Shown here piece by piece: positions 22,141 through 64,000 of a DNA stretch of 64,000 nucleotides. The position numbers were made by a program, and so were the translations under genes. Source of the DNA: Polytrichum commune (Eukaryota; Streptophyta; Polytrichopsida; Polytrichales; Polytrichaceae); the NCBI GenBank assembly GCA_950295325.1, contig OX485806.1, positions 48,417,169-48,481,168 on the forward strand. Reading direction: 5' to 3'. The notes beneath the pieces are model-generated. The model saw only the letters and a list, made by a program, of their open reading frames with translations. It searched no databases and was not told the DNA's origin. The stretch's first letter is position 1; every line of letters starts with the position of its first letter.

Positions 22141-22145
22141 TCCCC

Positions 22146-23574: not shown

Positions 23575-24368
23575 TCCCCCGTTGATTGACACAACGCACT
23601 ACCTACAGCCATCGCACTAGCATCACAAAACACACGAAATGGTTTTCCCCAATCTGGTGGTCTAAACACCGGGTAGGTGGTAAGCTTGGACCTCAACTCC
23701 TCGAATGCATGTTGGCATGCGTCTGACCACTCAAACTTACAATCATTTCTAAGCAATTGTGTGATAAATACTGCAATCTTTACATAATTCGGGATCAATT
23801 ATCTATACTACCCTACATGTCCCAACAACTTGGCTATCCCCCTAGCATTGGTCGGTGTAGCCAACTCATCTATCATTGCTATATTTTCTGGATCCAACTC
23901 TCTTCCTTTCTCACTTACCACATATCCTAACAAAACTCCTCTTTGCACTCCTAAGAAGGTCTTGTCCAGGTTCAAAGCCAACTGCATCTTCCTGCATCTA
24001 ATCAAAGCCTCTCTCACACACTCTAAAAATTGACTAGCACTAGACTGAGTGCTAAAATCATCTACAAACACTGTCATGGATTTGAAAAACAAGTTGGTGA
24101 AGATATACATGACCAATCTCTGAAGCGTGGCGGGGGCATTATACAATCCAAATGGCATGACCACCCACACGAACGTGCCCCAAGGAGTGGTGAAAGGCAT
24201 ATCTTGTAAAGCTATGGAAATCTGGTTATAACCCGCATAACCATCCATGAAAGTGTAACGAGCATGCCCACCTACCTCCTCTAAAAGTAAGGTGATGAAT
24301 GGTAAGGGGAAATGGTCTTTCTGTGTGCAAACATTCAACTTCCTATAATCTTCACACATCCTCAACTA
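23575..24368 (-). pseudogene. Ty3/gypsy reverse transcriptase and start of RNase H, element 3
   Basis: Frame 23808-24365 (minus) covers RT fingers/palm: MCEDYRKLNVCTQKDHFPLP, FMDGYAGYNQI (first catalytic Asp region), MPFGLYNAPATLQR, and FVDDF in place of the usual Y/F-x-D-D block with both aspartates kept, then LLGYVVSEKGRELDPE. The next frame, 23559-23798, holds the connection and RNase H start (CKFEWSDACQHAFEELRSKL, RVFCDASAMAVGSALCQ). One frame break lies at about 23800. The 5' edge of this segment is abrupt: upstream on the coding strand is integrase-like sequence of a different element. Confidence 0.88.
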
Positions 24369-25255
24369 CACACTGCCAATAGTACCTCCATGACACTACC
24401 ACTATGGTTGTTTTTTTATTGTTTATAGCCAGCAAATGACTATCATATTTTTCCTTCAAAACCAATGGCCTCAACTTGCCTTTTTGTACATACACCTAAC
24501 TTTGCGTATACTTGAGCAATCTGTCCACCAACTTGACGTCTTTGGGCGCCTTGCCCTTGTGAAGCTCATCTAGAAGCCTTTTTGTTTTGGGGTAAATAAT
24601 GTACGCCTCACTTATCTTGCGTCCCAAATTATTTTCATTGTTAAACATTACCCACAAGGTTTTGGTCGTACTTATTTTTTTTTTAAATTATCGTTTATTT
24701 TGCACCTCCTGCACACCATTGTCACGGCCTGGTTTGTGGATCAAATTCACATTCATAAGCGCCAATGTACTATGCTAGCACATTGGCTTGGCGCTCATCT
24801 GCGCTTGTGTCCCAAAATGCATTGTCCGTGTAGACCTTGGCTTTGTGCGACCCCAAATAATGTCGCCACGTTTTCAAACCATACATTACGACAAAGAATT
24901 ATTTCTCATGAGTTGGCCATCTCTTCTAATAACCATCAAACTTCTTGCGATCATATGCAATGACTATCCATCTTGCATCAACATTCCGCCAATGGCAGTA
25001 ACACTTGTCCCCGTATGTATTTCAAAAGGTATGTCAGACTCCGCAAACTCGAGCAACGCGGAAAAGACAACTTGTTGTTGAGCTCCCCAAAGGCTTGATG
25101 ACAAGGTTCATTCCCCTCTTAGGATATTTTTTCCTTAAACAAGTTCAACAAGGTTTTAGCAACCTTAGAAAAATCTTGAATGAAGCGGCGGTAGTAGTTG
25201 GCTAGGCCAAAAAAATCATTTTTGGATCAAGGACCACTTCCACTCTTGGATTGCC
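24369..25255 (-). pseudogene. Ty3/gypsy RNase H and integrase zinc-binding fragment, element 4
   Basis: Minus-strand remnants with many stops. Near 25200-25140 the RT connection motif YYRRFIQDFSKVAK is readable. RNase H-like segments follow (EFAESDIPFEIHT, GTQAQMSAK, HKPGRDN) down to about 24690. At 24400-24560 an integrase H2C2-type stretch is readable in pieces (LDELHKGKAPKDVKLVD, VLKEKYDSHL, RYYW). It ends at about 24368 against the RT of element 3. The solo LTR at 25261-26221 interrupts it from its own upstream RT part. Confidence 0.65.
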
Positions 25256-33290: not shown

Positions 33291-34391
33291 TGAAATTGGA
33301 AGTTGGATAGTTATAAGGAAGAAGACGAGGTCAACGTCCGGGAAGTGGAACAACGAAAGAGGTAGCGGCTCGGCCTATATCCATCCCAATCAACCAAAGA
33401 GAATTGAGGTAAACTAACTAACCCTAGCCTTTCATTTAGGGTTGCAAGGAGCGCAGCCAATGTATGCATTCCTAAACCCACTCGCCTATTTCGTAAGGTC
33501 AAGTGGCTTAACCAATTGATTGCCAAGGGGGCACCCAACTCCATTGTTCTCGGGCCCCTTGGTATGTTTTTTGAAAGTAGCTTTATTTATTAGCAAATTT
33601 CATATGTGGTAAGTTGGATTAATCATCGACACGACCACTCTGAATGTTGTTGGTGGAAAAAGATAATAAATGACCTGTATACTCTTGAATTGGGAGTAAT
33701 GGCCCCAATTTATGAAGATTGTACAACAGGTTGAACCTACAGGTTGCATGTTACCCTAGTCCCATTTAGTTGCATTTTGTGATTTATCTAGTGTAAACAC
33801 ATTTAATAATTAAAAACATACAAAACAAATCGTAAATCCTTGTTGGCAAGAGAGCCGAATCGGAAACTTAACTCGGTAGGGTGACACCACCCTTCGGACC
33901 GTTAAAGTCTGAATGGTTTGAGATGTCACTTGACCTTCAAAGAACCTGCTCGAAGCCTTAAAAGATTTTGAGCTAAGAGATGCATTAACCAGATAAGGGG
34001 TGATGCCTAATATATGAATGTAATAAGGTAGGATGTGTAAACAAAATTAAGTAAATAAAAAATAATTTGTATAAGGGTGGGACTTAGGCCAAGTCCCCTC
34101 GCTTGGGAAATTAAATATAACTAAGTAAATAAATAAGAAAGACTTGAATGGTCCATCAAATCATCGTTATTCCGTTTACTGAGCTAGGGGTGGTATGAGT
34201 CACACCCGCTTTGTGTGTATCATAGCCATATCAATTCACAAGTTATGATTGTCTTGATTCCAAGGCTGGTGCGTCTGCATTTAGAATAGGTTGTAGGTTT
34301 AGGTTAGAACTAGATATGAAATTAATTAATGGAGTTTAGAGCCACAATAGTAAAAAAGTAATGTCCAACCTCCGGAGGTACTACAACGCAT
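33291..34391. other. Intergenic sequence, nothing recognised
   Basis: Lower AT content than the preceding region but no convincing gene. A 77-codon minus-strand frame at 33311-33544 matches no family I know. The segment 33840-34010 (GAGCCGAATCGGAAAC.. to ..GGGGTGATGCC) looks like LTR or leader sequence of an element with no other copy here. Confidence 0.4.
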
Positions 34392-34494
34392 TGTCGTGTA
34401 AATAGCGATCATGTGTCACTGCAGCTCGAGTACCAACCACCACTAACAAACACTAAAACATAGCATAGTAACACATAAACAACACACCTCGACA
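34392..34494 (-). repeat. 103-bp LTR-like direct repeat (outer copy)
   Basis: Ends form a perfect 5-bp inverted terminus, TGTCG at 34392 and CGACA at 34494. It repeats, in the same orientation, the segment at 34829-34934 with four substitutions and one 3-bp gap. It directly abuts the 334-bp block that is shared with 44390-44725. Confidence 0.9.
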
Positions 34495-34828
34495 GAGAAT
34501 GAAGAGAGTAGAATACTCACAATAGCTCTAAATCTCTCTTCAAATGCATACAAGTAGTCAAGCTATCTCTCATTCCACCAAGGGAGAATCCAAGAGTGTA
34601 AGTAGAGGGAGAAGAGCTCAAGATTTATTGCAAAATCATGCAATCTACACCTCACACAAGCTCTCTCCACACACTAACTCACAAGACTTGACTTGGCAAG
34701 AATGCCAAGCCAAGGAGGAGGCTCCTCACTTAGGAGCCTTCCTCTCCACATCTAGATTCATCCATCTAAATCTAGATGGATGAAATCCAACGGATAAGGT
34801 GCGGCCGTCGACGCCGCACCGTGACAGC
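34495..34828 (-). mobile_element. LTR segment of the methyltransferase-bearing gypsy element (3' copy)
   Basis: A 334-bp block, from GAGAATGAAGAGAGTAG to CCGTGACAGC, matching 44390-44725 in the same orientation with four substitutions and one 2-bp gap (about 99 percent). Two such near-identical blocks enclosing gag-pol are what a young LTR pair would give. The block sits between the two 103/106-bp direct repeats, which the other copy lacks. Confidence 0.8.
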
Positions 34829-34934
34829 TGTCGTATAAATAGCGATCGTGTGTCACTGCAGCTCGAATACCAACCACCACTAACAAACAACACTAAAACA
34901 TAGCAAAGTAACACATAAACAACACACCTCGACA
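34829..34934 (-). repeat. 106-bp LTR-like direct repeat (inner copy), adjacent to polypurine tract
   Basis: Begins TGTCGTATAAATAGCG and ends CACACCTCGACA on the plus strand; on the minus (element) strand it begins TGTCGAGGTGTG directly after the polypurine tract. That placement marks it as the start of the 3' LTR of the element at 35219-42445. Confidence 0.82.
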
Positions 34935-34948
34935 TACCCCCCCTCAGC
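34935..34948 (-). promoter_or_regulatory. Polypurine tract of the gypsy element
   Basis: On the minus strand the sequence reads GCTGAGGGGGGGTA and then TGTCGAGG, a G-run immediately upstream of the LTR start. This is the usual primer site for plus-strand cDNA synthesis. Confidence 0.75.
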
Positions 34949-35218
34949 TGACTATGGAGTCCCGCCAAGCAGCTAGGACCAACGCCAATCTAAAAGGCAT
35001 AGATAATGAAAGAATGCTCCGCAACTAACTAGTGTGGTAAACGTTATTCCAAGGGATTGTAGGCTGGGTGCAAGGTGAGCCCCATCCTTAATCGCCTCTG
35101 ATGTTTGGCCATCAGATCCCAAAGAATTAAATCCACCGCCTCATGTTGATTGCGTCTCTAAGCCATAATTCCTCATTTTCCATTTGGGCAGGCACAAGAT
35201 GATGAAAACCACACAGGA

Positions 35219-36289
35219 TCATTGAGTACGATTAGTGGAAGCACCAAGTACCAAAAATCCTCGACAGCGAGGACAACTCCACTGTCCAGATGGTAGAGAA
35301 GTCAAGGGTGGCCTCAAGCATGCCATGTGCCAACCGCGTTGACACTGATCACACAAGAGCATAGTAGCCGCTCCTTTCTTCTCTCCACACACAAAACATG
35401 GAAGACCGTCTGGCACGACGGCCAGTTCAGGATGAACTGTACCCTCAATAGGTAGATGATATGGGGCACAGTTTTTGGAATGCTCGCGACATTCCCTGCC
35501 ATCCTTGCCTTCCAACAACAACAAACCACTCGGCAACACCTCCTTCACCCGAAGGATAGTGCGCCCCGCCCTGACATCCAATGTCGTAGGCGCCTCACGT
35601 TGGAGATAGACATAATCCCCCTGCCGGAATCTCCGCAACTGAGGTCGGTAAGCACCACTGCGAATGTGTGCATAACGCAATGTGTCACGGTGCTAAGCAA
35701 TGGACAAATTCTCCATGGCCATAGGCATGGCTCTCTGGAAGAATTGAGCCCGCTCCTGCAAACACTCTGCCCAAAGGTCTGGATCATCCAAGTTCACAAC
35801 AAGAGCTAGTTTTTCCCAAATAGAACTCGGGAGTATAGGCTCACGTCCATACAACAACTGATACGGGCTGTAGGACGCCAAAGAGGCATGCCTACTAAAT
35901 CGATAGCCCATAGCAATCCAAGGCAACATAAGGTCCCAATTCCGGTGGCTTCCCCGAAGTAATCCATACTTCCTCAAGCCACGCTTGGTTGTCTGAACAA
36001 CCCGTTCAGCCAAGCCATCTATCTCCGGATGATCCCGAGAGGTGGTGCGGTGATCTATGAGCGCCTTAGTGCACAACCCCTCAGAAACACCATGGAACTC
36101 CCTCCCTTGGTCCATCAGCACCTCAGCCGGTGCTCCAAAACGTGCCAACACACAATCCAAAAAGGCGGCTGCGGCCAACTCTGCAGAGTTTTGGGGTAAA
36201 GCAACAAGCTCAATCCACTTGCTAAAATGCTCCACCATCACCAACACGTACTTTGCTCCACGTGGCGTGACAACCAAACGGTCCCGCAA
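35219..36289 (-). CDS. Integrase catalytic core, C-terminal domain and PHD finger (element 5, pol 3' part)
   Basis: Frame 35693-36289 carries the integrase core: VTPRGAKYVLVMVEHFSKW, then Asp60 in LMDQGREF and Glu95 in DGLAERVV, 35 residues apart as in DD35E. The partner Asp lies in the preceding frame (LDFAG, about 36290). A single UAG at about 35690 separates it from an in-register frame, 35219-35680. That frame begins with a GDYVYLQ..GRTILRVKEV-type integrase C-terminal domain and ends in a C4HC3 PHD finger: Cys95, Cys98, Cys110, Cys113, His118, Cys121, Cys136, Cys139. Integrase joins cDNA to host DNA; PHD fingers typically read histone H3 tails, so this one may direct target choice, where many plant gypsy integrases carry a chromodomain. 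The frameshift at about 36290 and the UAG mean this copy is probably damaged. Confidence 0.92.
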
Positions 36290-38366
36290 AGTCTAGCGAC
36301 CAACGGTAGCCCAATCCCATGATAGGTAAGGGCTGTAACTGAGGTGACAAGGTATTAAAGCTAAACCTGACCTGGTCACAAACTTCACACCTCCCGACAT
36401 AAGCAGCCACCTGCTGATACATGCCAGTCCACCAATATTGGCCACGCAACATCGAATGTGTCCTGCGTATGCCAAAATGGCCAAGTTCCTCGTGCACTTG
36501 TCGCACCAAGGAGGCCCTTTGATCCGGCCTAGGGACAAGACGCCTTGTCCCATCCGGCCACAATCGAAATAACAAACCGTTCTCCCAACGGAACCTTGTT
36601 ATTCGATGTCCAATCCTATCCCTTTCCATTGCCGAAATAGACAAAGGAAAGGTACCCTGTTGAAGCTTATGCAATACGGGATGATCCTCCCATATATCCG
36701 CAATAGCTTGAGGCCGATCAGTCTCATCATCCGAGCCCTGTATCGGAATCTCAACACATGCACCAGAAAATAAAGTGAGGTAGGCAGCCGTGTGCCAACC
36801 TGGAACCGCCTCTCGATCACAATCTCCATGCCACCTGGCCCCAGTCAAGTCCTCATCCGAAGGACTTGGATTGCGTGAGAGTCCATCTGCATCCATGTTG
36901 GTAATCCCAGCACGGTGTACCACCTCAAAGTCATACTCCTGGAGCAACAAAGCCCACCTGGCAAGCTTGCCAGTAAGCTTATCCGACTCCATGAGCCACC
37001 GTAATGGCTGATGGTCAGTCACTAAAGTAAAGTGCTGACCATAAAGATACGGCCGAAAATGGGCAATAGCCCATACTGCCGCCAATGCTTCTCCCTCGTA
37101 GGATGAATAATTAGCCTCCGCCGTGTTATTGCTTCGCGAAGCGTAAGCAACAACATACTTCCAGCCAAAATCATCTTTCTGAGTGAGAACTGCTCCCAAA
37201 CCCAATGAACTCCAATCTGTATGCAACTGGAAAGATTTGGAGACCTCTAGACGTCGAAGCACTGGAGCCGTACCTAGTTTCTGCTTCAATGTCTCAAACG
37301 CCTGTTGTTGCTCACGAGCCCAAGTCCACGGTTGGTCCTTGCTCGTGAGAATAGTGAGAGGCTTGGCAATCAAGCTAAAGTTCTTGACGAATCGCCAATA
37401 GTAATTCGCCAAGCCCAAGAAAGCACGAAGTCTCGGCACATCAACCGGTGCCGGAATCTTCTGCAAGGCGTCCACCTTAGCTTGTTGTACCCCAAGACCT
37501 CCTGGAACAATCATATGCCCTAGATATGCCAACCGGTCATGGAAAAACTTGCACTTGCCGTGGTGCAAGCGCAATCCCCACCGTTGCAACCGCTCAAAAA
37601 CGGCTTGAAGATGCCTTACGTGCTCCTGTGGTGTTATACTGAAAATGATAACGTCATCAATGTAACACCGAGTAAAGGGTAAGCCAGAGAGAACTTGGTC
37701 CATCACTCTCTGAAACTCCGCAGGTGCATTCTTCAGGCCAAACGGAAGAAACCTCCAATGGTAAAGTTGATCCTTCCCATCTTGATCAACTCCCCAGAAT
37801 GCGGTTTTCACTCGGTCTCCCACAAGTAATGGGAGTTGGTGATAGCCGGATCTCAAGTCCAACGTGCTAAAGACTCGAGCAAATCCGAGGGCATCGAACA
37901 ACTCCTCCGGGATTGGCATGGGATATCGATCCGACTTGGTCTTCCGATTAACTGGACGGTAATCCCCGCACATCCGCTTCTCCGTCCAATTGCCAAAGAT
38001 ATCCTTTTTCGATGGCATAACCGTAGCACAAGCATACTCCCCGTTGGAAAGTTCGATTAGCCTTGCTGCCAAAAACTCTCGGCAACGAACGTGAACGCCA
38101 CTCCGCTCGGAAACACTGAGCCTATAAGGTCTCCGAAAAATGGGATGGTCGTCCTCCAACTGAATGTGGATGGGCTTTACTTTATAACCTTCAAGATCTT
38201 GAAGGCTAAAAGCAAAACACCTACGGTACGAGCAAATAAATGCTCGTACTTTCCGTGCCTCAACACCAGTGAGATGAGGGCCCAATTCCAATGGCCAATC
38301 ATCAAACTCTGTGGTCTCCCTCTCTACTAGAAGAAAGCCACCTGGTGCTGGCACGGACTCTAACTG
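36222..38366 (-). CDS. Pol: reverse transcriptase, RNase H and integrase N-terminus (element 5)
   Basis: A 710-codon open frame starting at the codon after the UAG at about 38370. RT spans roughly residues 50-300, with first catalytic Asp in STLDLRSGYHQL (Asp166), FGLKNAPAEFQRVMD, and YIDD at 231-234. The connection holds FLGLANYYWRFVKNF. RNase H spans 370-495, with Asp380 (LHTDWSS), Glu420, Asp447 (VTDHQPL) and the acidic NMDAD end. The integrase HHCC finger uses His621, His626, Cys656 and Cys659, and the first catalytic Asp688 lies in WSLDFAG. All key residues are present. The frame then shifts by one base at about 36290 into the rest of integrase. There is no strong own start codon (the first in-frame candidate is GTG), fitting expression by readthrough from the upstream methyltransferase frame. 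Confidence 0.95.
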   Translation of the reverse strand, partial: QLESVPAPGGFLLVERETTEFDDWPLELGPHLTGVEARKVRAFICSYRRCFAFSLQDLEGYKVKPIHIQLEDDHPIFRRPYRLSVSERSGVHVRCREFLAARLIELSNGEYACATVMPSKKDIFGNWTEKRMCGDYRPVNRKTKSDRYPMPIPEELFDALGFARVFSTLDLRSGYHQLPLLVGDRVKTAFWGVDQDGKDQLYHWRFLPFGLKNAPAEFQRVMDQVLSGLPFTRCYIDDVIIFSITPQEHVRHLQAVFERLQRWGLRLHHGKCKFFHDRLAYLGHMIVPGGLGVQQAKVDALQKIPAPVDVPRLRAFLGLANYYWRFVKNFSLIAKPLTILTSKDQPWTWAREQQQAFETLKQKLGTAPVLRRLEVSKSFQLHTDWSSLGLGAVLTQKDDFGWKYVVAYASRSNNTAEANYSSYEGEALAAVWAIAHFRPYLYGQHFTLVTDHQPLRWLMESDKLTGKLARWALLLQEYDFEVVHRAGITNMDADGLSRNPSPSDEDLTGARWHGDCDREAVPGWHTAAYLTLFSGACVEIPIQGSDDETDRPQAIADIWEDHPVLHKLQQGTFPLSISAMERDRIGHRITRFRWENGLLFRLWPDGTRRLVPRPDQRASLVRQVHEELGHFGIRRTHSMLRGQYWWTGMYQQVAAYVGRCEVCDQVRFSFNTLSPQLQPLPIMGLGYRWSLDFAGPFGCHATWSKVRVGDGGAF

Positions 38367-38375
38367 CTAATGGGA
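38367..38375 (-). promoter_or_regulatory. Candidate translational readthrough site UAG-CAG-UUA
   Basis: The methyltransferase frame ends ..CAT TAG CAG TTA GAG.. on the minus strand and the RT frame continues in the same register without a frameshift. UAG-CAR-YYA is the established leaky-stop context of tobamovirus-type readthrough. A single conserved UAG here would give a protease-methyltransferase product and a minor product extended with RT, RNase H and integrase. Confidence 0.65.
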
Positions 38376-40790
38376 GGAGGGGGCATTAACCATGCCCCCA
38401 ACCTCCGTGCTAGCAATAGAGTCCATCCCCTCTTCATCACCAACAATATGTGATGATGAAGCCACCACCGGAGGTGAAGAAGCCAAAGCAGTATAAACTC
38501 GTTGAGCTTGGAGCTCCTCCATCACCTGCTGCTCGAATCGACAGATTCGTTCGGCTTCTCCAACCATGACCTCAATTTCTTCCTCCATGGATGTGGACCA
38601 TTGTTCCCCTTGACCAGAATCCTCTGCCCCCAGAGAGAACAACTGGTCACCATGATGTTGTTGCAATGCAAGGCATAAACCAACAGTCCACACCATGGTA
38701 TGAAGATTCATAGCTTGACCCAACACGAAGCGTCGTTGGCCCTCAGAAAGGTTAGGAGTTCCGGTGGTGCCAGTTCGGAATCCCATGGCCCGCTCTCGTT
38801 CGTCAGCCAACGGTTCGGTGTGGATTTTGGTGTTAGCATCCCACACCATACCCGGCCCCCGATCGCGAAAGGCGAATGACTGTGGAAACGTCATAAAGGT
38901 GGGAAAGGCCTTCCGTGGTGCCCCCACTTTGTTGACCAATGCCAACGGGGGTAAATCATCTCGAACAACCGGCAAAGAGGTCCGGTTTGGATCCAAGATG
39001 TCATCCACCTTCTGATCCAAAGGTGGAGACACTGCAGAAAATGTTGTAGCTAAAGTAGATGACGGTGCGAGGTTGGTCCAAATCCACCGAGGCCGGTGGG
39101 CATAAGAACCAATGCTCGCAGCATCCACAAAAATGGGATCTCCAAGGTGTTGACGGACATAATGACTGCCTTCCAACACCTTGTCCCGAGAGTCTCCCAA
39201 CAAAGGTACATTCTTGAAGATATACCTTGGAGGGGAAGGCTGGTGGGTAAACCACCACTGCATAAGCCGGATGAGGTCCCAGAAAAGGCTAGACCTAGGA
39301 TCCTCTAAACCTCGGCCTGCTCCAGCACGTGAGTGGCCTTGGCATGGCCATCCCGCAATCACCATATCCACCGGGCCCAAGTGTCGTAAGTCGGCCTCAT
39401 TGATGAGTGTAACATCACGAGGGAGACGTGAAAAACACCCACGAATGGCAGTTGGAGGTAACTGCTGGGGGTACAATACCATCAACTGGTGAAGATGGTG
39501 ACGAGCCACACGGGTGGACACTTGAGAGTTGTCCACATAAACATACCGTCTAACCGTGAGGCCAGCCTCCAATACGGCCGCTAAGCCTATGCAGATGCCC
39601 CCAAACAGTTCCACCAAAATAATACCCGCGTCTGGCGGTTGCCATAAAATGGGATGTGCCAATGCCGAGAGGACACCCGGTATGATCGGTGTCCTAGGAG
39701 TGAGAGAGTGGACAATATCCTCGCATCTCCGAAATAGCTCGGCGGAATCACGCCAAGGAGGAAGGGGATCCTTGGGATGGCGCACCAATGCATTTTTAGG
39801 TGCCATATCTCGTTGATCGTTTATACTCCCCATGAATGCCAATGACTCCTCCAACAATGCGGAACCATAAGGCAATGTGTCCACCATAGCACCACATCCA
39901 AAAACCATAGATAATGGTGCTATGGTCGCGGCCGCCGCGAAAGCCACGGGAATAAGTTCCCTGCGGCCATCCCCAGCCGACCAACCTGGTTGGATCCACG
40001 CCTCCTCAGTCCAGTTGTCCAAACCAAAACCAAGAGGGTAAAGTGCTTGCTGACCAACTAAAATGTCATAGTTGGTCGCATTTGTCACCGCACACCTAAG
40101 AAGAAGAGGTGCGGGTGAATCTCCAGGCTTCACTCGGAAGCTAAGCTGTAATGGCTCTCGAGTATAACCCATGGCTCGCTCCACGTAACCAATGGATGTG
40201 ACAATGGTGAATGGACAGGGAGCCAAATCCTCGGCCGTCAACCTCAACTCTTGGGCAAGCCTCTTGCCGATCATAACTGGCTGTGCCCCTGAATCCATCA
40301 TCACACAACGGGGAGCAACCCGAGTAGCATTGCTCCCAGTGCGACTGACCACCAAAATTCCGGTATTATTCACCATATGCACAACGCCGGGTCGAATGCC
40401 GCGGCGCTCGCGGACAGGTCTAGCAGCGACATAAGACAAATAGGCTGCACCCGCGGATACTGGTGAGTCATAAGACGTGGTCGGTGCCTTGTCATCTGAG
40501 GCGTGTGCTTCAAAAGACGCAATGGTCTCTGCCGCAAGTCTCGCTCGCCGTTTGGCCACATCCTCAGGATCTTCAGAAGCAAGGATGTCCGTAGTGGCTT
40601 GAGCCACGGTCAGAGAAGGTAAGGATGTCTTCCCTTCCAAAATCCTACCTGCTAAGTGAAAAACCTTAGCAGGTTGGAACTCTGGCGATGACCACTCCAT
40701 GGCCGTGAATAAAGGTGTGTGTAACACCTTGGATGCCAACGTGTGCGCCACATCAGTCGCTGAATGTGAAACCTCATCGTTCGGATGACG
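38367..40790 (-). CDS. Aspartic protease fused to C5-cytosine DNA methyltransferase (element 5)
   Basis: A 794-codon frame. Residues 140-260 are a retropepsin-like protease (MMDSGAQPVMIG, active-site Asp153-Ser-Gly; YDILVGQQAL near 229-237). Residues 376-695 are a C5-cytosine methyltransferase domain with motifs in canonical order: motif I VELFGGICIGL (380-390, SAM binding), motif II YVYVDNS, motif IV GWPCQGHS with catalytic Cys470, motif VI IFKNVP at 511-516, where Lys513 replaces the usual Glu of ENV, motif VIII AHRPRWIWTN (551-560), and motifs IX/X ERERAMGF and LGQAMNL (651-682). A Glu-rich coiled tail (722-750) follows. The domain would transfer methyl groups from SAM to cytosine; the Lys513 change may impair this copy. 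It lies between protease and RT, inside the polyprotein, in register with RT across one UAG. Confidence 0.95.
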   Translation of the reverse strand, partial: RHPNDEVSHSATDVAHTLASKVLHTPLFTAMEWSSPEFQPAKVFHLAGRILEGKTSLPSLTVAQATTDILASEDPEDVAKRRARLAAETIASFEAHASDDKAPTTSYDSPVSAGAAYLSYVAARPVRERRGIRPGVVHMVNNTGILVVSRTGSNATRVAPRCVMMDSGAQPVMIGKRLAQELRLTAEDLAPCPFTIVTSIGYVERAMGYTREPLQLSFRVKPGDSPAPLLLRCAVTNATNYDILVGQQALYPLGFGLDNWTEEAWIQPGWSAGDGRRELIPVAFAAAATIAPLSMVFGCGAMVDTLPYGSALLEESLAFMGSINDQRDMAPKNALVRHPKDPLPPWRDSAELFRRCEDIVHSLTPRTPIIPGVLSALAHPILWQPPDAGIILVELFGGICIGLAAVLEAGLTVRRYVYVDNSQVSTRVARHHLHQLMVLYPQQLPPTAIRGCFSRLPRDVTLINEADLRHLGPVDMVIAGWPCQGHSRAGAGRGLEDPRSSLFWDLIRLMQWWFTHQPSPPRYIFKNVPLLGDSRDKVLEGSHYVRQHLGDPIFVDAASIGSYAHRPRWIWTNLAPSSTLATTFSAVSPPLDQKVDDILDPNRTSLPVVRDDLPPLALVNKVGAPRKAFPTFMTFPQSFAFRDRGPGMVWDANTKIHTEPLADERERAMGFRTGTTGTPNLSEGQRRFVLGQAMNLHTMVWTVGLCLALQQHHGDQLFSLGAEDSGQGEQWSTSMEEEIEVMVGEAERICRFEQQVMEELQAQRVYTALASSPPVVASSSHIVGDEEGMDSIASTEVGGMVNAPSSH

Positions 40791-41008
40791 ACCACTGACA
40801 GATGATCGGCCAATCCAAAAGATAATGGTAGTCGTGCCTGACCAATTTGGTCCGCGGGCGCATTGTCCCGAGCTCGCGAGCTTGCCACATATTCATTTGT
40901 AGTCGAAGGTATGGATTGTGACACGGCTTGAGCACGTGTCACGGCGGCGGAACTCACCACCTCGCCCGAGGCTCCGAACATATAGTAATCCGGAGTGGAA
41001 GAACTAGC
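40785..41008 (-). other. Gag-protease junction: UAG plus frameshift (element 5)
   Basis: The Gag frame ends GGA GCT TAG GCT at about 41010. The same register stays open for a further ~75 codons (DYYMFGASGEVVSSAAVTRAQ.. to about 40785), where coding signal passes to the protease frame (HPNDEVSHSATDVAHTLASK) by a one-base shift. Either this is a decayed single ORF, or expression needs readthrough plus frameshifting. The UAG context (GCT AGT) is not the CAR-YYA type. Confidence 0.6.
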
Positions 41009-42445
41009 CTAAGCTCCGGAGGAAGACGGTGAGGCCAAGATTTGGCCGGATGACGCCAAGCTTTTGAACCTCTCCTCCATGGCTCCAATCTTCGCCTCCA
41101 ACGTCTTCTCCCGGTCGGAAAAAAAACGTTTCTCAGGATGGAGAGCAAAGCAGTTCTCTACCGCGTGATTGTTCCGCCCACAATGGGAACACTTCAACTG
41201 CTTGGGTAACTGATTACCCGTCGTCCCCTTCGTCGAGCCCTTAGCGGAAACAAATGGCTTCCGCTTCGGAGTAGTGACGGTCTGGGCTTGCCTTTGCTTC
41301 GAAGGACAGTCCTTCTTAGCGTGGCCGGCCTGCCCACAAGACCAACAATACATGGTCTTGTCTACCTCGGCGTCCGCCAATCCCGCAGCCGCAACTGGAA
41401 CTCTTCGGGATTTGCTAGAATCCACTAGCAAGGACACCAAATCAGTGGCATCGTGCTGACATAATGCACGATCACACTGCTCCACCACGGCGAATGCCTC
41501 TGCGAGTGTCGCTCGACCACCAAACTCCATGATGATCCTGGGTAGCTCCAAGTCAAGGAGACGTTTGTCAATCTTTGACAAAAACACCTTCACCAACTGA
41601 CTTTCCGCGAACACACCTCCAGATTCTCTGGCAAACCTCGCCAACCTCGTATACATGGTACGAGGTGTATCGTCCTTCTCCCGTCTAAAATCTTGTATCC
41701 GCTGCATCTGGTCACGACGGAAGCCTCCGTACTCCCCCTGTAGATGCAGCTCAAATGCCCGCAATGGCTCAAAATCTGGCGGAGCCCCTAAAGAGGCTAA
41801 AGCCGCTTGGGTGGCCATGGCATAACGCGAGAGTGGAAGAACTGGGCTCGACGTACTCGCCGCAGTGGGAGCAGGACCCGTAGCCCTCGGCTCACCAGGA
41901 GGAGCTCCCTCGACATCCACCACATAACCTCCCTCCGGTACCTCCGTCTTGACATCCGGAACGGCCATTAAACTGGAAGCTGCGCCTTCTTTCAATGCGA
42001 ATACCAACTCAACCCGAGTCTCCCAGTACCGCTCCACCTGGCGCAGCTCCATCCAATGAGCCTCCGTCCACTGCTCATAAGTTTGGAGAGCTTCATGCTC
42101 TAAATGCTGAGGCAGAAGCTTAAACGCATACCAATCGTTAAAATTGGTATTGCGTTGGCGTTTCTCTCGCATCCACGTACGAAACCGGATTTTCCAGTCT
42201 TGCAGAGAAATGGTCCCTGCTCGACCGGAAAACTGGTCATGTATCCCTCCCTTAGTCTCCTCCTCCATATCGTCAAAGGTTCCCACCCACAAGACGTGAG
42301 ACCGAGTGATAGTCCCCCACGCCGAAGTAGGCTGAAAAGCCTCGTTGGGTGCTACCACTAGTTCAACGTCCGAGAGGTCCGAGGGATGACCTTCCGATGC
42401 TCCTAGGGACGGAGAACGATAGTGTTGAGTACGAGTTGTAACCAT
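41009..42445 (-). CDS. Gag polyprotein with two CCHC zinc knuckles (element 5)
   Basis: A 478-codon frame starting at an ATG at 42445 (MVTTRTQHYRSPS). Residues about 90-330 are the capsid-type retrotransposon-gag region (RAGTISLQDWKIRFRTWMRE, YAFKLLPQHLEHEALQTYEQW, FRRDQMQRIQDFRREKDDTPRTMYTR, FLSKIDKRLLDLELPRI). Two perfect C-x2-C-x4-H-x4-C knuckles follow: residues 367-380 (CWSCGQAGHAKKDC) and 419-432 (CSHCGRNNHAVENC). A short predicted coiled segment (EKTLEAKIGAMEERF) lies near the end. Gag would assemble particles and bind the element RNA. The frame is intact. It is unlike the gags of elements 1, 2 and 4. Confidence 0.95.
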   Translation of the reverse strand: MVTTRTQHYRSPSLGASEGHPSDLSDVELVVAPNEAFQPTSAWGTITRSHVLWVGTFDDMEEETKGGIHDQFSGRAGTISLQDWKIRFRTWMREKRQRNTNFNDWYAFKLLPQHLEHEALQTYEQWTEAHWMELRQVERYWETRVELVFALKEGAASSLMAVPDVKTEVPEGGYVVDVEGAPPGEPRATGPAPTAASTSSPVLPLSRYAMATQAALASLGAPPDFEPLRAFELHLQGEYGGFRRDQMQRIQDFRREKDDTPRTMYTRLARFARESGGVFAESQLVKVFLSKIDKRLLDLELPRIIMEFGGRATLAEAFAVVEQCDRALCQHDATDLVSLLVDSSKSRRVPVAAAGLADAEVDKTMYCWSCGQAGHAKKDCPSKQRQAQTVTTPKRKPFVSAKGSTKGTTGNQLPKQLKCSHCGRNNHAVENCFALHPEKRFFSDREKTLEAKIGAMEERFKSLASSGQILASPSSSGA

Positions 42446-44389
42446 AAACCCACAATGGGATGGTCACCGAATCAACAACCCAAATGAATTAGTATCCAGG
42501 TACAAAGAGAAAAAAGATCAAAGGCAACCTGCACCTGCAACCACCACCAAAACTTATGGTCTGCTGGTCATTAACCCAGCCTCACCACAAGTGAAAACAA
42601 GCACCGCCCACTTGGTGCACAAACAAAGGTCCCGTCGGTCATTAATCCGACCTCACCTCCACAGTACCCTATCACAATCTAGGACTACACAAAATGGGGC
42701 AGTGCTAGAACACTCCAGCACTACAGCCCGCCACAGGGGAAGGTACCAAAACAAAATACAACGAACAATGCAAGAACAACACTAGATCCTCTTCCCCAAA
42801 ACAACATTCAAGCAGAAATTGAAAACGACCGCAACCAACTAGCACCCGCCTGCAGTTGGTGGTCAAAATAAAGAGTTCCTGTTGCTTAAGAAAAGGAAAT
42901 GCTAACTATGCACATCTCTCATCTAGTACTATAATATAAAATCCTCTCCTTCCTAAAGTCCTTGGAATTTGTGTTGCTTAACACAATTCGTGCTTAACAA
43001 ATTATCTTGTTAAGTCGAATGGTAATTCCATATCCAATTCGCTCCATCCCTAGGCAATCCCTAAACAATTTATAAACTTATACCAAAATAAAATCTACAA
43101 CAACAATCAACCTATCCCCAAATAAATCCTACACCTATCCCCAAATAAATCTCAATGCCCTTATTTTCCTTCTAAACAAAGAAATGGAAAATCCCTGCTT
43201 ATGCCAAGTACCTCTATCAAGTCATTGCGGGAGAAAATGAAGCTAACCGCAAATTCGCCGTGTTCCCACGCCCTCCGCGTGTTGCCGGATGCTACCGCGA
43301 ACATCTCCCACAATGTTCCACCCCTCCCAACAAAATGATTGTGTACCAAATGTATACACAACCCACAATTGCCAAGAAACTCGAAAAGGTGCCCTCAACC
43401 TTGGCGCCGAAGTGGGTTATTCATAAGTCCAAGAATTTCATTTTGTTATTTCTTGACCTCTCGAGACCTTAGTTCATTGTATTTTTTTTGTTGTTGTATT
43501 GAAAAATACAATGACAAATAGAATCAACTAATTCTTTTTTTTAAATAAAATATTTTTTTTAAATAAAACTAATAATATAAAAAAAAGGCTGCAGCAGACT
43601 GCCGAGAGGGAATGGGGAGGGGGAGGCTAACCTAGGAGGTAACCGGCCAGGGGGGTGGGGCCAGGGAATGGAACCGGCCGGGGGGGTGCCTATGGGCTAG
43701 GGGGAGGGGTTGTAGGCTAGGGGGGAGGGCTGGTAGGCCTAACTTAAGGGGGTTAGGGGTAGCTTAGGGAGGGAGGTGGGGTGGGGCCTAACGGCTAGGG
43801 GGGAGGGGCTGGTAGCTTAGCTTAGGGGGGGGATTTAGGGGTAGCTTAGGGGGGGGGAGGGAAAAAGGGAAGGCAGGGGGGAGTTGGAGAGGAGGAAGGG
43901 GGGAGGAAGAAGGGGGAGGGGAGGGGAGGGGAGGGGAGGGGAGGGCGGCGGGGAGGGGCCCGGCCCAGCTTGCCGCCGGCCGCCGCCGAGCTGCCGCCGC
44001 AGCCCGGAGTCCAGAGAGCTCCGGCTCTCGGCACCGCTCTACCTCTTATTCTCTCCTTTGTTTAATTTTTTTTATTATAAATTTTTTGAATGAACTTGAA
44101 CTCAAATTGGAATGAAGAGTGCTCTACACAAGCTCAATGATACGAATTCAAGCTTGCAAGCCGAAAAATGACAAGGAATTTCGTAGACAATTCAATAATT
44201 CATCACCACAATTCACCTTGATGTGGCCTTCATAAAAACAAACATTCTTCATATTGTTGCGCCGCAAATCCGCGGTGTTCTCTCTCCAGAACTTCGTAAC
44301 TTCATCACTCCTTGTCCTCACGCCTTTCCTTGTGTGTTATATATCAAGAATGTAGAGAGAACAACAAAAATGAAGCATTCTTGCCAAGT
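42446..44389 (-). other. 5' untranslated leader and R/U5-like region of element 5
   Basis: Non-coding. The plus strand carries a strongly G-rich stretch at 43600-43990, ending in a (GGGGA)n run at 43912-43945. Upstream on the element strand, 44157-44389 contains TATATAA (44338-44344) and would be the promoter-proximal R/U5 part of the 5' LTR. At about 44154-44132 the element strand reads TTGAATTCGTATCATTGAGC, weakly like a TGGTATCAGAGC initiator-tRNA primer-binding site, preceded by TTGCA. The LTR end is therefore tentatively at 44155; this is uncertain because the 3' copy does not contain this part. Confidence 0.45.
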
Positions 44390-44725
44390 GAGAATGAAGA
44401 GAGTAGAACACTCACAATAGCTCTAAATCTCTCTTCAAATGCATACAAGTAGTCAAGCTATCTCTCATTCCACCAAGGGAGAATCCAAGAGTGTAAGTAG
44501 AGGGAGAAGAACTCAAGATTTATTGCAAAATCATGCAATCTACACCTCACACAAGCTCTCTCCACACACTAACTCACAAGACTTGACTTGGCAAGAATGC
44601 CAAACCAAGGAGGAGGCTCCTCACTTAGGAGCCTTCCTCTCCACATCTAGATTCATCCATCCAAATCTAGATGGATGAAATCCAACGGATAAGGTGCGGC
44701 CGTCGACGCCGCATACCGTGACAGC
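44390..44725 (-). mobile_element. LTR segment of element 5 (5' copy)
   Basis: A 336-bp block nearly identical to 34495-34828. On the element strand it starts GCTGTCACGGTATGCGGC and ends CTCTTCATTCTC. It lacks the TGTCG..CGACA repeats that flank the 3' copy, so the outer edge of the 5' LTR appears truncated, with unrelated sequence beginning at 44726 (ATATTTAATTCC). Confidence 0.8.
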
Positions 44726-45795
44726 ATATTTAATTCCCTTCCAAAAATCTAAGTACTCACGTTATACCCCTATCATCCGGGTTGAGCTTGGGCACCTGCA
44801 AGTGCAGGACACCTTCACCGAAGGGCTTGTGTGATATTTTTAGGCTCCCACATAAGGGGGTGGCCAAAAACTCCACATTTGGGTTGACAAAATTTGAAAA
44901 GTTTCATTTACATTACCGCACAATTGAAACTTTAGGATTTCAATGTTCTCAAATAATTTTTTGGTTTTTATATTGTTCTGTTGTATCCATCTGAGGAGGA
45001 AACACTTTAAGATATAATTGAAATCAACAAGGATGGTCCCCAATCCTTACATGAAGACGTGGCCACATAAACCAGAAAACAAAAAAAATAAAAAAAATTG
45101 ATAGTCCACCTACACCTCTAAATATAACTACCAATAATACAACATGTAGATCTACTCCTATGGACGTTGAAAATTTGTTTTTCTTACAATAAGTTTTGAT
45201 TGTGGTTCAACAACCTACAGGGCCTTCTTCATCGTTGGTTCAAGTGTTGTTGGAAAACATCATTGTTTTTGGGTGGATATCAACTCTGTCACATCCTCTA
45301 TTATTGAAGACTTACGACTTTGTAAAACAAATGAGCATCTACATATTTACTTTGATGATTCAATAATTGTATCTAGTTGTTAGTTTCTAATCCTCATATG
45401 AAATTGCTATCATTTTTTCTAATGTTGTGTTGGTGTTTGCAAGTGCAATTTAATGATGTGCGTACAACACAATTTTCAATTGATACTTGTTTGCACAAAG
45501 GATTTGACTTGGTGATTGCATATTTGCCTAAAAAACTTCCCGTGCCTCTTATATCAAAATGGAACAAATACAATAGTGATAAGATAGACGTAATTTTTTG
45601 AATTCTCATTCCACTTTCTTCACGATGATACATACATTCTTTTATTCATGCCAAAATCCAAGAATGTTCAACTTGATGTTCGAATATTTGCTCAAACTTA
45701 CGCATTTTTTTCTTTAGAGATTTGTAGGGTAATAACTTCATGCATCTATGCTCAGGTGTGGATACATATGCAAAGGTATGTGTAGCTAATAATTT
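44726..45795. other. Intergenic sequence, nothing recognised
   Basis: AT-rich sequence with one 74-codon plus-strand frame (45377-45601) of unknown meaning. It may be heavily decayed upstream coding sequence of the Copia remnant at 45825, but I cannot match a domain. Confidence 0.4.
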
Positions 45796-51485: not shown

Positions 51486-54254
51486 CTATTTTTTTCCTAT
51501 TACCGTGCTATCACTTTCAAGAATGATGGGCATCTGCACAAGACGAGCCCTCACAACACGTCCTGAACCTCTTGGATGTGAGAAGTTTACCTTGTCAGGC
51601 TGATGAAACTCCTCTTCAGCTCCAAGAGGTAGATCTGCCTTTCGCTTCTTGGACCCGAATACCTCTTCTCCAGCCATGCGAGGAACACGGGTACAAAACT
51701 CTTCTGCTCCAGGCATGTCCAGCATGGGGTCTTCAAGCATTAAAGGATTACCTGTTTGCTTCGCCCTGCGCTCTACCATCCTTAGTTTGAGCTCTTTCTT
51801 TGTAGGGCCTGTTCCACCGACGTCACCTTTCAGGAACTGGTAGTAATTGACAACCTATAAGAAGCCTCGAACGAAGTCGTCTACTGTAACAACGTAGAGG
51901 TCACCGCCGCTGTTTCCAGACGCTTGAAGCCAGTTGTTGTGTATTGTTTTAGCTAGATTACATGAAGGCATTTCTGCTAGTTTTTCTTTTGAAAATTTAT
52001 GCAAGTACGTAGTGGAAGTAGTTAGAGATTAGTGAAGAGTTGTTTCATATTAGAGTACTGTGAAAAAAAGGAAAATAATATGAAATGTATTGGAAAAACA
52101 TACCCCGGTCATGAAGCCTCCCCATTGGCGATAACGGTAGTGCCAGAATGCAAGCCAGAGCTCTAGTTTGTTTAGGGCCTTCTCTATCATTGCCCCGGCG
52201 GATACCCACCATGCACGTAGCCCGTGGTACATACTCTCCGCTTCGTCCATGGTCCTCGCCGTCCTATACTGGTGGCACATCTTCTTGTGCTGCTCCCAGA
52301 GTTCTTCGGGAATGTACTTCTCGGTATACTTAACCATAGACTGGGTCTAGTGAAACTGACAGGTTCTTTCGCGGTCGTCCATGCGGTCCTCCTTCTTCCC
52401 GTTGCCATATATGACCCGAACTGCATTCCAGTTGGCCTGGGCGCTGTCGGCTATGAAACCCTTGAAGTTGGGCTTGACAATGCCATTTCTCTCCATGACA
52501 GCATTGAGATTTTCCAGAAAACGATCTGGGCATCAGAGTCCTCAGATTGCATGTCACAACTTGCAATGGTCATAACACGACAATATGTGGAGTCATACAC
52601 GTGGCATGCCATTGTGGTCCATTGTCTTACACGTTTGACATGGTCGAACATCATCCAGACATTCTCCAGATCTTTGCCGGGCTGCATATGCTTCACCAAG
52701 TCTACCCCACTACCAGGCCCGACTTTCGACATTTTGAAGACAAAAACCTTGTCAAGATCAGCCCCTTGACTTGGAAATTTGTTCTCCTGAATAAAGGCCC
52801 ATAAACTGATTCCACGGAGTTTGGTGATAGAGTCCATGACACCATATCTTCTGAGGAAACGGAAGCTCATGACCTTGTTGCGGATGTTTGGGGAAGCCAT
52901 GTCCTTGCATCGGTCAAATAGAGGAACAAGTTCCTCTAGACTAAGCTTCTTTGGTGGCGCATCATTGGGTTGAAGAAGATAGTTGCCAATTAAAACTTTG
53001 CTAGCCTCCAACACCACTGCACTCTTGGTAGCCTGGGGAGTCTTCTCGATCTGTTCTTCAATTAGGCCACTGATCTCAGCCTTAGTGTCTCTGTAGTCGC
53101 CCACCTTGACTGGGTGATCGTGAGTTCCTAGGTGGATACACGCTCTTGTATGGTTGATTTTGCCAGCCACATAATAAATCTTTGCTCCACATATAGCAAT
53201 ACATGCCGGGGGTTCTTTACATACCTTGCAAACAATAGTGGACTCAGTTGGGGGTGTTTGATCCACTACAAAGGCTTGCAGGGTACAACCTTCAAACTCT
53301 ATCTCGTTAATTTGGAAAATACGAGGACGGCGGATCAGATATTCGCAGTCCTTGTTGTTGCAACGCATGTATCCAACGCAGGCGGAAGAACGGAAGGACA
53401 AACCAAAGTCGTTTGTGATGTTGGTGGTGATGGTCTTCGTCCACACATGGCCGTCGTAACGCTTGTCCATTCCCTGCATAGACTTGGCCTGTGACCGTGC
53501 GGCCGTGTGACCAGCGGGTGGCAACTCAAATATGACGGCACTGGCATATTTTTTTCCCAGGCATTCCGGCGAGTTGTTTAAGTAATGGTAATATGCTAAC
53601 AGTATCTTGTGACAATTGATATACTTTAGGAGTGTTCCCACTAACTATGACCTTAGGCGGGGCCTTTGTGGGACTGCACTCTTCATCAGAAGAAAATGTT
53701 ATTACAGACTGAAATGTAACGTTTTCTATAATTGGCATATCGAGACCAGGCTCGAGGTTGACCTTCACATCACGTGGCAGAGGAGTTTGAATGGTGCAGG
53801 TAGAGGAAGAACGAGGAGTAAGGATCTCAGTAGATGCAGCCATCTGAGAATCAGTGAGGCCATACACTCAGTAACTACCTGGATGAAGATTCCAAAACAA
53901 GTTATTGTTCTCATGTCGCTGCGAAACCCGACCAAGGGTGTGTGTAAGCTCAGACGTGACAACGTCAAAAATATCCTCGTCAACAATAATAGTGTCTTCT
54001 CGGAAGCCGAACCGAAGACTCAAACGTTGTGACGTCACGTAAGCTAGTCCGTTCTCCTCCATCCGAAAGGTAAGTGGAACTCTAACTCCATCAGCATAGA
54101 AGACAACCATCCCCAACTCTCCGTTAGCAGGAAGATGAGCCATGATGAGGGGAATGAGGCCTTGCACTAAGAAGAAAATATGAAAGAGGATTCTGAACAT
54201 TGTGGGCCATCTATATATTACAAATGGGCTGCCAACGATAACGATATGATCCAC
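51486..54254 (-). pseudogene. MULE-like transposase with GCM/WRKY-type zinc finger, copy 1
   Basis: A minus-strand gene in pieces: N-terminal region 53868-54254, then 53526-53867, then a 52451-53641 frame. That frame opens with a zinc-binding domain like the GCM/WRKY-GCM1 class (SACVGYMRCNNKDCEYL, CKVCKEPPACIAIC, YYVAGK, HLGTHDHPV) and runs into a DDE core: Asp in HVYDSTYCRVM, then in other frames FIADSAQANWNAV (second Asp), ERTCQFH, and AESMYHGLRAWW (acidic). A splice donor follows GGFMTG. The last part, NLAKTIHNNWLQASG to 51486, has an in-frame stop. At least two frameshifts in A-runs (53550 and 52500) and a UAG for Trp at 52350 inactivate it. The product would excise and insert the element. 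TATATATAAATATA at about 54346 may be its promoter region. Confidence 0.82.
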
Positions 54255-63700: not shown

Positions 63701-64000
63701 GTATTCTGGCCATGGTCACCTAAAGGTGGAAATTCGAAGATAACGTCCCCATCGTAACGAGGGGGAAGGTAATCAACCTGCTGGAGTTTGATTGCATCAA
63801 TGTTAATTCGAGATAACACACTTTTGGACTGTTTACGAGCTCCAAGGCGCATCAATGAATGAATGATACTGACAATAGGACTTGATACAACCTTGGACTG
63901 ACAAGGATTACGAGACGGATTAATAGGAGGAGTTGTTTCCTTGCGAACTACTTCTGGAGACAGCGAAACTTGGACTTTACTCTATGATCTTAGAACTTCA
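60780..64000 (-). pseudogene. MULE-like transposase with GCM/WRKY-type zinc finger and SWIM-like C-terminus, copy 2 (runs off the window)
   Basis: Minus strand. The N-terminal GCM-like finger at 63160-63855 (SSCLGHLRCDNHDYEYL, with Tyr for a Cys kept in copy 1; CKSCNVPPTCVAVC; YYVTATPHMTRACVHLGSHDHPV) is followed by 62771-63132 (MDSITKLRGTSNW, KMFEVGPGSGVD) and the catalytic core 62353-62856 (VYDSTYCRVM, FMADSAQANWNAVRIIYG, ERTCLFHWTQSL, AETKYLAIRAWW). An intron (62234-62327) splits it from 61979-62233 (MPSCNLAESIHNKWKQQSG, NPGTGPPYEEL). The tail, in broken frames, ends at 60780-61244 with a SWIM-like CQH..RGQWANCKHLYYLF. A UAA replaces Gln in CYR*WGG and frames shift near 62850 and 61250. 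Better preserved than copy 1 but not intact. Confidence 0.85.

Follow-up and report, generated by a model that had tools for sequence, protein, structure and literature searches.

The 64,000-nucleotide stretch of Polytrichum commune DNA analysed here (the window; contig OX485806.1 of assembly GCA_950295325.1, positions 48,417,169 to 48,481,168) carries on its minus strand, at 34392-44723, a Ty3-type element with Gag, protease, DNA methyltransferase (DNMT), reverse transcriptase (RT), RNase H, DDE integrase and a PHD finger. The reading we favour, and hold to be probable, is that the element is a degenerate copy from a large Ty3-type family in which a DNMT3-like enzyme is encoded with Gag ahead of a UAG codon that is probably leaky, and which inserts by way of rearranged complementary DNA (cDNA). 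Its fuller version is more tentative and has, in our judgement, slightly less than an even chance: the site used for integration would be a fixed palindrome inside the long terminal repeat (LTR), one restriction-like cut and host end joining would move part of the LTR, each insertion would be a rearranged cDNA, some without a terminal repeat, and a de novo DNMT would be made in Gag-like amounts ahead of the leaky stop.

Repeat order and ends of the insertions

A first-pass annotation of the window had taken the terminal blocks of the element for LTRs. Instead, the repeats follow each other in the element sense as A-ORF-B-A-B (ORF, open reading frames), an order of split direct repeats with one copy of B on either side of the left A. 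The features concerned are the following.

34388-34391, no strand: left target-site duplication, GCAT
34392-34494, minus: B2, terminal copy of the ~105-bp repeat B, 103 bp, ending ...CGACA in element sense
34495-34826, minus: A2, internal copy of repeat A, 332 bp
34823-34832, no strand: palindrome GACAGCTGTC at the B1/A2 junction, its middle GC (34827-34828) outside the element ends
34829-34934, minus: B1, copy of repeat B 3' of the polypurine tract (PPT), 106 bp
34937-34945, minus: PPT GAGGGGGGG, 2 nt ahead of B1
44375-44389, minus: position of the primer-binding site (PBS) directly after A1, with 15-nt complementarity to 44586-44600
44390-44723, minus: A1, 5' terminal copy of repeat A, 334 bp, starting TGTCACGG
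44586-44600, minus: site inside A1 complementary to the PBS stretch, with a second copy in A2 at 34691-34705
44724-44727, no strand: right target-site duplication, GCAT

The element ends in TGTC...GACA with GCAT on either flank, and its inner B/A junction reads GACA-GC-TGTC, a perfect palindrome. Ordinarily, the start of an LTR is given by the PPT and its end by the PBS. As the PBS adjoins A and the PPT adjoins B, the reverse-transcribed LTR should here be B-GC-A. The bounds of the insertion differ from this unit: it starts at A, inside the expected LTR at GACA-GC-TGTC, and ends after the second B.

To place the window copy within its family, we used the whole genome (408 Mb, 64 contigs). Of 353 candidates, 123 had scored matches to PF00145 (DNA_methylase), and 37 of these matches lie in open frames of at least 1000 residues; these are single-domain matches that leave full-length elements unproven and perhaps include a few host genes. 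The PPT|B junction occurs at 143 sites with at most two mismatches, compared with 0 for a reversed-pattern control. Ten copies were fetched in two pieces each, nine with a 1386-residue open frame (c01-c09) and the copy of L003 (c10). Since c01-c09 were chosen by their open frame, counts of openness and motifs are biased upward. Forty further copies were the first unsampled ones among 100 listed of the 143 PPT|B sites, all with 0 mismatches and from the main subfamily only; as these list-order copies were found through an intact PPT|B junction, that junction is unusable as a control. Finally, 16 further five-prime ends were read, from nine ORF-B copies and from seven copies picked for unusual A|B or B junctions. 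The main subfamily (c01-c09) shares 54-55% identity with the window copy in the protease-DNMT region and 82-85% in most of RT, and c10 is close to the window copy (90% and 95%, respectively).

The insertion bounds recur across these copies. Eight fetched copies (c03-c10) and the window element are A-ORF-B-A-B, whereas c01 and c02 are A-ORF-B with no repeat at their ends. In each of the 11, the ends are exactly TGTC...GACA and a 4-bp target duplication is present (read from the flanks for the fetched copies), with letters that differ in nearly every copy; ACTT is shared by c01 and c09. The 40 list-order copies end 30 times in B1-A2-B2, nine times in ORF-B and once (L045) in an incomplete A2, which brings the 51 three-prime ends from the fetched, list-order and window copies to 39, 11 and 1. 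A1 is present in 10 of the 11 copies that lack A2-B2, giving A-ORF-B, and was found in 15 of the 16 further five-prime ends, the one without it being L034. The duplication is present in 14 of the 15 further copies with both ends, including 7/8 ORF-B copies with A1. Altogether, TGTC...GACA ends with a 4-bp target duplication were seen in 25 of the 26 insertions with both ends read. An ordinary LTR element with damaged LTRs would agree with the PBS position, the PPT and the two A copies, which are placed roughly as in such an element. This reading is refuted by A-ORF-B-A-B in 8/10 other fetched copies and by the matching 3' ends of 30/40 list-order copies, with target duplications at exactly these ends, and we leave it practically no probability.

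Solo units point to the same bounds. Among 100 listed of 126 exact A|B sites, 68 lie at element 3' ends and 32 have no partner among the matches listed. The 20 of these 32 that were read comprise eight B1-A2-B2 ends, ten solo A-B units and two incomplete ones, and eight of the ten solo units, all with both ends, have a 4-bp duplication. Solo A-B is the expected leftover of recombination between A1 and A2, so that the insertion unit is supported once more.

The claim that the insertion was recent suits other copies, several of which have repeats that are 99-100% identical, better than the window copy, which is not among the youngest: A1 and A2 differ by four substitutions and a 2-base indel, B1 and B2 by four substitutions and a 3-base indel. 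As further variation within the repeats, tandem duplications inside A are found in both A copies of c04 (L016 6125-6690, about 130 bp) and of L083/L040, L084 has the first 77 nt of A four times in its 5' A and L039 has them twice in its A2, and L061 and L062 share an identical 13-bp deletion in B2, not in B1, that lies between short direct repeats while their flanks differ.

Proposed priming, cleavage and end joining

First-strand synthesis is probably self-primed, as suggested by pairing between the PBS stretch and a site inside A that is kept with different letters. In the window and c10, ACTTGGCAAGAATGC pairs with GCATTCTTGCCAAGT over 15 nt, and in c03-c09 ACTTGACAACAAT pairs with ATTGTTGTCAAGT over 13 nt. 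The end of A could be located by exact string in 11 of the 16 further five-prime pieces, where the complementarity spans 9 to 16 nt; as a control, 60 of 2000 random 20-mers from the window share at least 9 nt with A1. In the known case of Tf1, the RNA starts at the self-complementary priming site. Among plant chromoviruses, self-priming has been described for Tcn1 (excerpt of PMC6317226). Three candidate signals in the repeats were dropped: a TATA box in B as U3 promoter occurs only in B1 of the window and not in B of c03-c10, an AATAAA signal in A is present in c04, c10 and the window and absent in the other six copies checked, and an argument from RNA structure in A met an equally strong antisense control. 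Separately, the flank upstream of A1 (44724-44738; element sense AATTAAATATGC) is AT-rich and TATA-like.

Reverse transcription would then yield [B-GC-A]-ORF-[B-GC-A]. The right end of this expected product is unlike the CA ends seen at the insertions, and within each B-GC-A two CA ends meet head to head and have GC in common. We propose that the element's integrase cuts GACA^GC^TGTC in the left LTR-equivalent, so that both CA-3'-OH ends come from a single cut; if staggered as GACA^GC, this cut would produce just two ends, both of them 3'-processed. Precedents exist in the integrases of prototype foamy virus (PFV) and HIV-1, which cleave the palindromic two-LTR junction, for HIV-1 in vitro (excerpts of PMC1180852 and PMC1905944). 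Before or after the cut, the right A end would be joined to the left B start, in a circle or with the released B piece, which gives A-ORF-B-A-B, and integration would then create the 4-bp target duplication. If both palindromes were cut, or if a one-LTR circle was used, A-ORF-B would result. All steps after reverse transcription are what we infer from the sequences of the copies.

The junctions carry hints of end joining. Among the 39 B1-A2-B2 copies (30 list-order, eight fetched and the window), A|B is inexact in seven, whereas the B-GC-A spacing is constant in all 39, with a base substitution in the palindrome of 5 of the 30 list-order copies (indels 7/39 vs 0/39, Fisher p 0.012). L030 and L064 have one extra base exactly at A|B with intact target duplications, and L065 lacks two bases there. 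Part of A is missing in c08 (21 bases, CTTG microhomology) and in L040 (CTTGA microhomology), and part of B in L044 (27 bases) and L038 (about 90). In L039 the junction reads A|B-G-B, the pattern expected if the start of another B were joined to a cut B end that retained G or GC; release of a B piece and its later joining would account for this. Target duplications are perfect in L039 and in all six list-order A|B variants (L030, L064, L065, L038, L040 and L044). Of the two junctions, only A|B was found with indels; this gives it the look of an end-joining product, whereas B-GC-A resembles a fixed site that is encoded in the element.

The same data bear on two other accounts. First, all copies could enter as A-ORF-B-A-B and be altered afterwards, with A-ORF-B arising through B1xB2 recombination and the A|B indels being ordinary later deletions. 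In favour of this, B1 and B2 are direct repeats of nearly identical sequence that lie about 540 bp from each other, recombination between A1 and A2 seems to occur, leaving solo A-B with a target duplication, and the deletions in c08 and L040 end in microhomologies of 4-5 nt. However, this account leaves the B at the right end unexplained and is at odds with the restriction of indels to A|B and with two variants that are single added bases exactly at that junction, their duplications intact. We regard it as doubtful, although it keeps a substantial share of probability.

Second, in the splint model of split-repeat (tyrosine-recombinase) retroelements applied to this family, B1-A2 would act as a splint that joins the B2 and A1 cDNA ends into a circle, which then integrates. 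The internal B-GC-A would be a natural splint, and the order A-ORF-B-A-B is that of PAT elements (excerpt of PMC4157794) and of KnitGypsy-Dnmt3 from Klebsormidium nitens (excerpt of PMC5890265). Against this, a DDE integrase core is present and no tyrosine recombinase is found among the Pfam matches, and 25/26 insertions have a 4-bp duplication while tyrosine-recombinase elements insert without one (excerpt of PMC4157794). The splint model also explains neither the PBS at the A end and the PPT at the B start nor the A|B indels. Replication of this DIRS/PAT type appears improbable to us.

Several observations weigh against the reading favoured here. No promoter was identified, the TATA-like site of B1 in the window being absent from c03-c10, and the RNA-structure z-scores are alike on both strands (-6.88 and -6.91). 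L037 lacks the 4-bp duplication, as do two of the ten solo A-B units. None of the 26 copies with a read 5' end has B ahead of A1 (the sequence covered upstream ranges from 37 to about 3000 bases or more), and among the matches listed no partner, be it a DNMT or PPT|B, lies downstream of any of the 100 listed A|B sites (of 126; reversed-pattern control 1). A two-LTR circle that is opened at random is disfavoured, as it should also yield A-B-A-ORF-B, none of which was seen; the cut must hence strongly favour the left palindrome, which lies about 105 bp from an end. The A|B indels, two of which (c08 and L040) lie at microhomologies, could be later deletions, the B2-only deletion common to L061 and L062 must on the favoured reading be slippage homoplasy, and an origin of A-ORF-B through later B1xB2 recombination is a live alternative.

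Methyltransferase and UAG stop codon

The coding parts of the window element were delimited as stop-to-stop reading frames and scored with Pfam profiles.

35219-35692, minus: frame piece with the C-terminal part of integrase and the PHD finger (Pfam PHD 3.7e-12)
35693-36292, minus: frame piece with the integrase core (rve); a frameshift parts the core from the RT frame, and an in-frame stop closes the piece
36222-38366, minus: RT, RNase H and integrase zinc-binding domain (Pfam RVT_1, RT_RNaseH, H2C2)
38361-38369, minus: UAG-CAGUUA between DNMT and RT, of type UAG-CARYYA, the same type in 10/10 other copies
38370-40892, minus: protease-DNMT frame, 841 residues (Pfam DNA_methylase 2.7e-10, above cut-off)
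about 38613-39767, minus: DNMT domain, within the protease-DNMT frame
39195-39224, minus: KNV stretch of DNMT motif VI
39330-39377, minus: PCQ stretch of the DNMT (motif IV)
40281-40295, minus: DSGAQ protease motif, within the protease-DNMT frame
41009-42463, minus: Gag frame, with two CCHC knuckles by eye

The initial description of a minus-strand Ty3/gypsy element with a C5-cytosine methyltransferase between protease and RT is borne out by these domains, which follow each other in the order described, and by the DNA_methylase profile match; the PHD finger that it mentioned lies after the integrase. The pol order RVT_1, RT_RNaseH, H2C2, rve is of the Ty3/gypsy type, and the best sequence match in the PDB is Ty3 (1.5e-82). 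Neither a tyrosine recombinase nor a chromodomain is among the Pfam matches; the rve core is present instead of the former, and the PHD finger follows the integrase instead of the latter. The zf-CCHC score in Gag falls slightly under the cut-off, and the protease call combines the DSGA motif with aspartyl-protease matches under the cut-off. In the window copy, gag-pol is broken by a stop after gag, a change of frame between gag and protease, and a frameshift and a stop in the integrase. The copy is very probably inactive. Scans of the window with Rfam (gathering threshold) and for tRNA genes gave no match, and no relatives of the element were found in the viral and prokaryote contigs in which they were looked for.

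The possibility of a chimeric join at the DNMT is ruled out by the other copies in the genome: the DNMT lies between Gag and RT and the PHD finger after the integrase in 10/10 fetched copies. Gag and protease-DNMT form a single open frame of 1386 residues in c01-c09, and the frame from RT to the PHD finger is open in 7/10 fetched copies and broken in c02, c06 and c08.

In all ten fetched copies, UAG closes the DNMT frame, and RT continues in that frame. The hexamer after UAG is CAATCA in eight of them and CAACCA and CAATTA in one each, compared with CAGTTA in the window, so that UAG-CARYYA is found in 11/11 copies vs 3 of the 1888 TAGs in the window, one of the three being the DNMT/RT stop itself. 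We take UAG-CARYYA to be the plant-virus type of leaky stop, with a match in tobacco mosaic virus. Since synonymous sites are saturated between the subfamilies (dS at or above about 2.7) while the context of UAG is kept, its conservation suggests that it is functional. The UAG is thus probably leaky, with readthrough inferred from this context. Because the DNMT lies ahead of the leaky UAG, it would be made with Gag and protease and in excess over RT and integrase. Readthrough would thereby place the DNMT at Gag-like levels, and the enzyme would be expected to enter particles and to methylate the cDNA of the element itself.

The full set of C5-methyltransferase motifs that had been reported for the window is largely present: I, II, IV (PCQ), VIII and IX/X occur in the order of an unrearranged enzyme. 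Motif VI is the exception, as it reads FKNV rather than ENV and has lost the glutamate, whereas ENV is found in 10/10 other copies. Among solved structures, the window DNMT matches DNMT3A best (1.9e-9), followed by HhaI (1.7e-4), chain 4onj 'DNA methyltransferase' (2.6e-4) and DRM2 (0.3), and neither DNMT1 nor CMT is among its 51 structure matches with E up to 10. A profile of seven copies gave DNMT3A at 5.8e-11, HaeIII at 5.2e-6, HhaI at 7.4e-5, 4onj at 1.7e-4, DRM2 at 0.21 and DNMT2 at 0.38. Hence, the enzyme appears DNMT3-like, a placement by sequence and profile scores against solved structures. The NCBIfam dcm match is under the cut-off, and an AlphaFold model of the DNMT domain alone was uninformative (mean predicted local distance difference test score 34.7).

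Between subfamilies, the DNMT is under purifying selection, as shown for the long term only. Its nonsynonymous divergence (dN) between subfamilies is 0.26-0.28, compared with 0.10-0.11 for RT. The dN/dS ratio of the DNMT is 0.07-0.10 in seven pairs with c10, and dS is beyond calculation in seven pairs with the window; c10 against the window gives 0.28 for DNMT and 0.14 for RT. Close pairs within the main subfamily have noisy DNMT ratios of 0.23 to 1.13, based on few changes. Left out were c06 and c08 for DNMT, as their motif ends were not found, and c02, c06 and c08 for RT because of stops.

Methylation of the element's own cDNA, as proposed in 2018, would be compatible with these findings and is the least supported step of our proposal. 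The DNMT could also be kept for a non-catalytic or host-tolerance role, such as DNA binding in the particle or slowing of the element's own spread, with no methylation of cDNA. The loss of the motif VI glutamate in the window copy would agree with such a role, as would the Klebsormidium Gypsy DNMT, which showed no activity in yeast, a result that its authors call inconclusive (excerpt of PMC5890265). This yeast result also counts against a catalytic function, as do c06, in which motifs IX/X were not found, and c08, in which LGQAM is altered. On the other side are the purifying selection between subfamilies and the ENV, PCQ and HRPRxxW motifs, kept in 10/10 fetched copies. In our view, a purely non-catalytic or host-tolerance role is unlikely, if far from negligible.

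Neighbouring sequences and known systems

Further mobile sequences may surround the element. Two copies of one repeated protein family lie on the minus strand at 52451-53644 and 62353-63981 and share VYDSTYCRVMTI and DKRYDGHVWTKTITTNI / DRRYDVHAWSRTITSNI; the frames 52451-53644 and 63160-63981 have no Pfam match and probably belong to another mobile element. Three consecutive plus-strand frames at 57137-59464 have no Pfam match either; in the last, FWRGPKEKA and DLTAGTGIS give the impression of a methylase-like or transposon protein. Other Ty3-type remains (pieces of Gag, protease, RT and integrase) at 20911-25214 and 1-3458, both minus, are 26-42% like the DNMT element where they match. An array of 7.7 copies of a 180-bp unit occupies 55414-56797, with a 241-residue open frame on its minus strand.

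A DNMT-bearing Gypsy element with DIRS-like repeats is already known from one alga. As the first-pass annotation had suggested, the window element belongs to a type that de Mendoza et al. reported in 2018, with a DNMT3 within the Gypsy coding region (excerpt of PMC5890265). Their KnitGypsy-Dnmt3 from Klebsormidium nitens has DIRS-like repeats, several copies and purifying selection on the DNMT (same excerpt). It thus resembles the window family in its Gypsy domains, DNMT3-related enzyme, repeats, multiple copies and selection, a likeness at the level of description. It belongs to another genome, and the 2018 main text reports for it no PHD finger, target duplication (given for LINEs only), self-priming, readthrough, palindrome or end joining. 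SymbioDIRS-Dnmt3 of dinoflagellates likewise combines a DNMT3-type enzyme with A-coding-B-A-B repeats but has its own tyrosine recombinase (same paper), where the window family has a DDE integrase and target duplications. For streptophytes and dinoflagellates, a 2025 survey that cites de Mendoza et al. reports DNMT3 members within retrotransposons; the families it names are LTR Copia and DIRS, and its excerpt gives no details of a Ty3-type element (PMC12344493). For an element of this kind, neither target duplications, end-joining scars, readthrough nor a PHD finger is mentioned in the open-licence titles and abstract starts among the matches listed.

Other systems share single traits. PAT/DIRS elements have split direct repeats A1-B1-A2-B2 (excerpt of PMC4157794) and differ from the window family, which has a target duplication and no tyrosine recombinase among the Pfam matches. 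The Tcn1/Tf1-Sushi chromoviruses share Ty3-type pol and predicted self-priming (excerpt of PMC6317226), whereas the window family has a PHD finger in place of the chromodomain, and split repeats. We regard as new the target duplications with TGTC...GACA ends, the placement of PBS and PPT, the indels at A|B only, the A-ORF-B form, UAG-CARYYA and the PBS/A pairing in two subfamilies. How an element with a DDE integrase can have DIRS-like repeats is left unexplained in the 2018 text (PMC5890265, in part), and the copies described here offer a concrete answer. Furthermore, a DNMT ahead of a conserved readthrough-type stop gives reason to expect the enzyme in particles and methylation of cDNA. In conclusion, the internal palindrome, the end-joining scars and the target duplications bear on the disputed use of circular or end-joined cDNA by integrases: like the integrases of PFV and HIV-1, that of the window family would cut a palindrome in which two LTR ends meet head to head, but the viral junction forms anew in circles (excerpts of PMC1180852 and PMC1905944), whereas the putative cleavage site of this family is an encoded part of the element in which the two ends share the GC.

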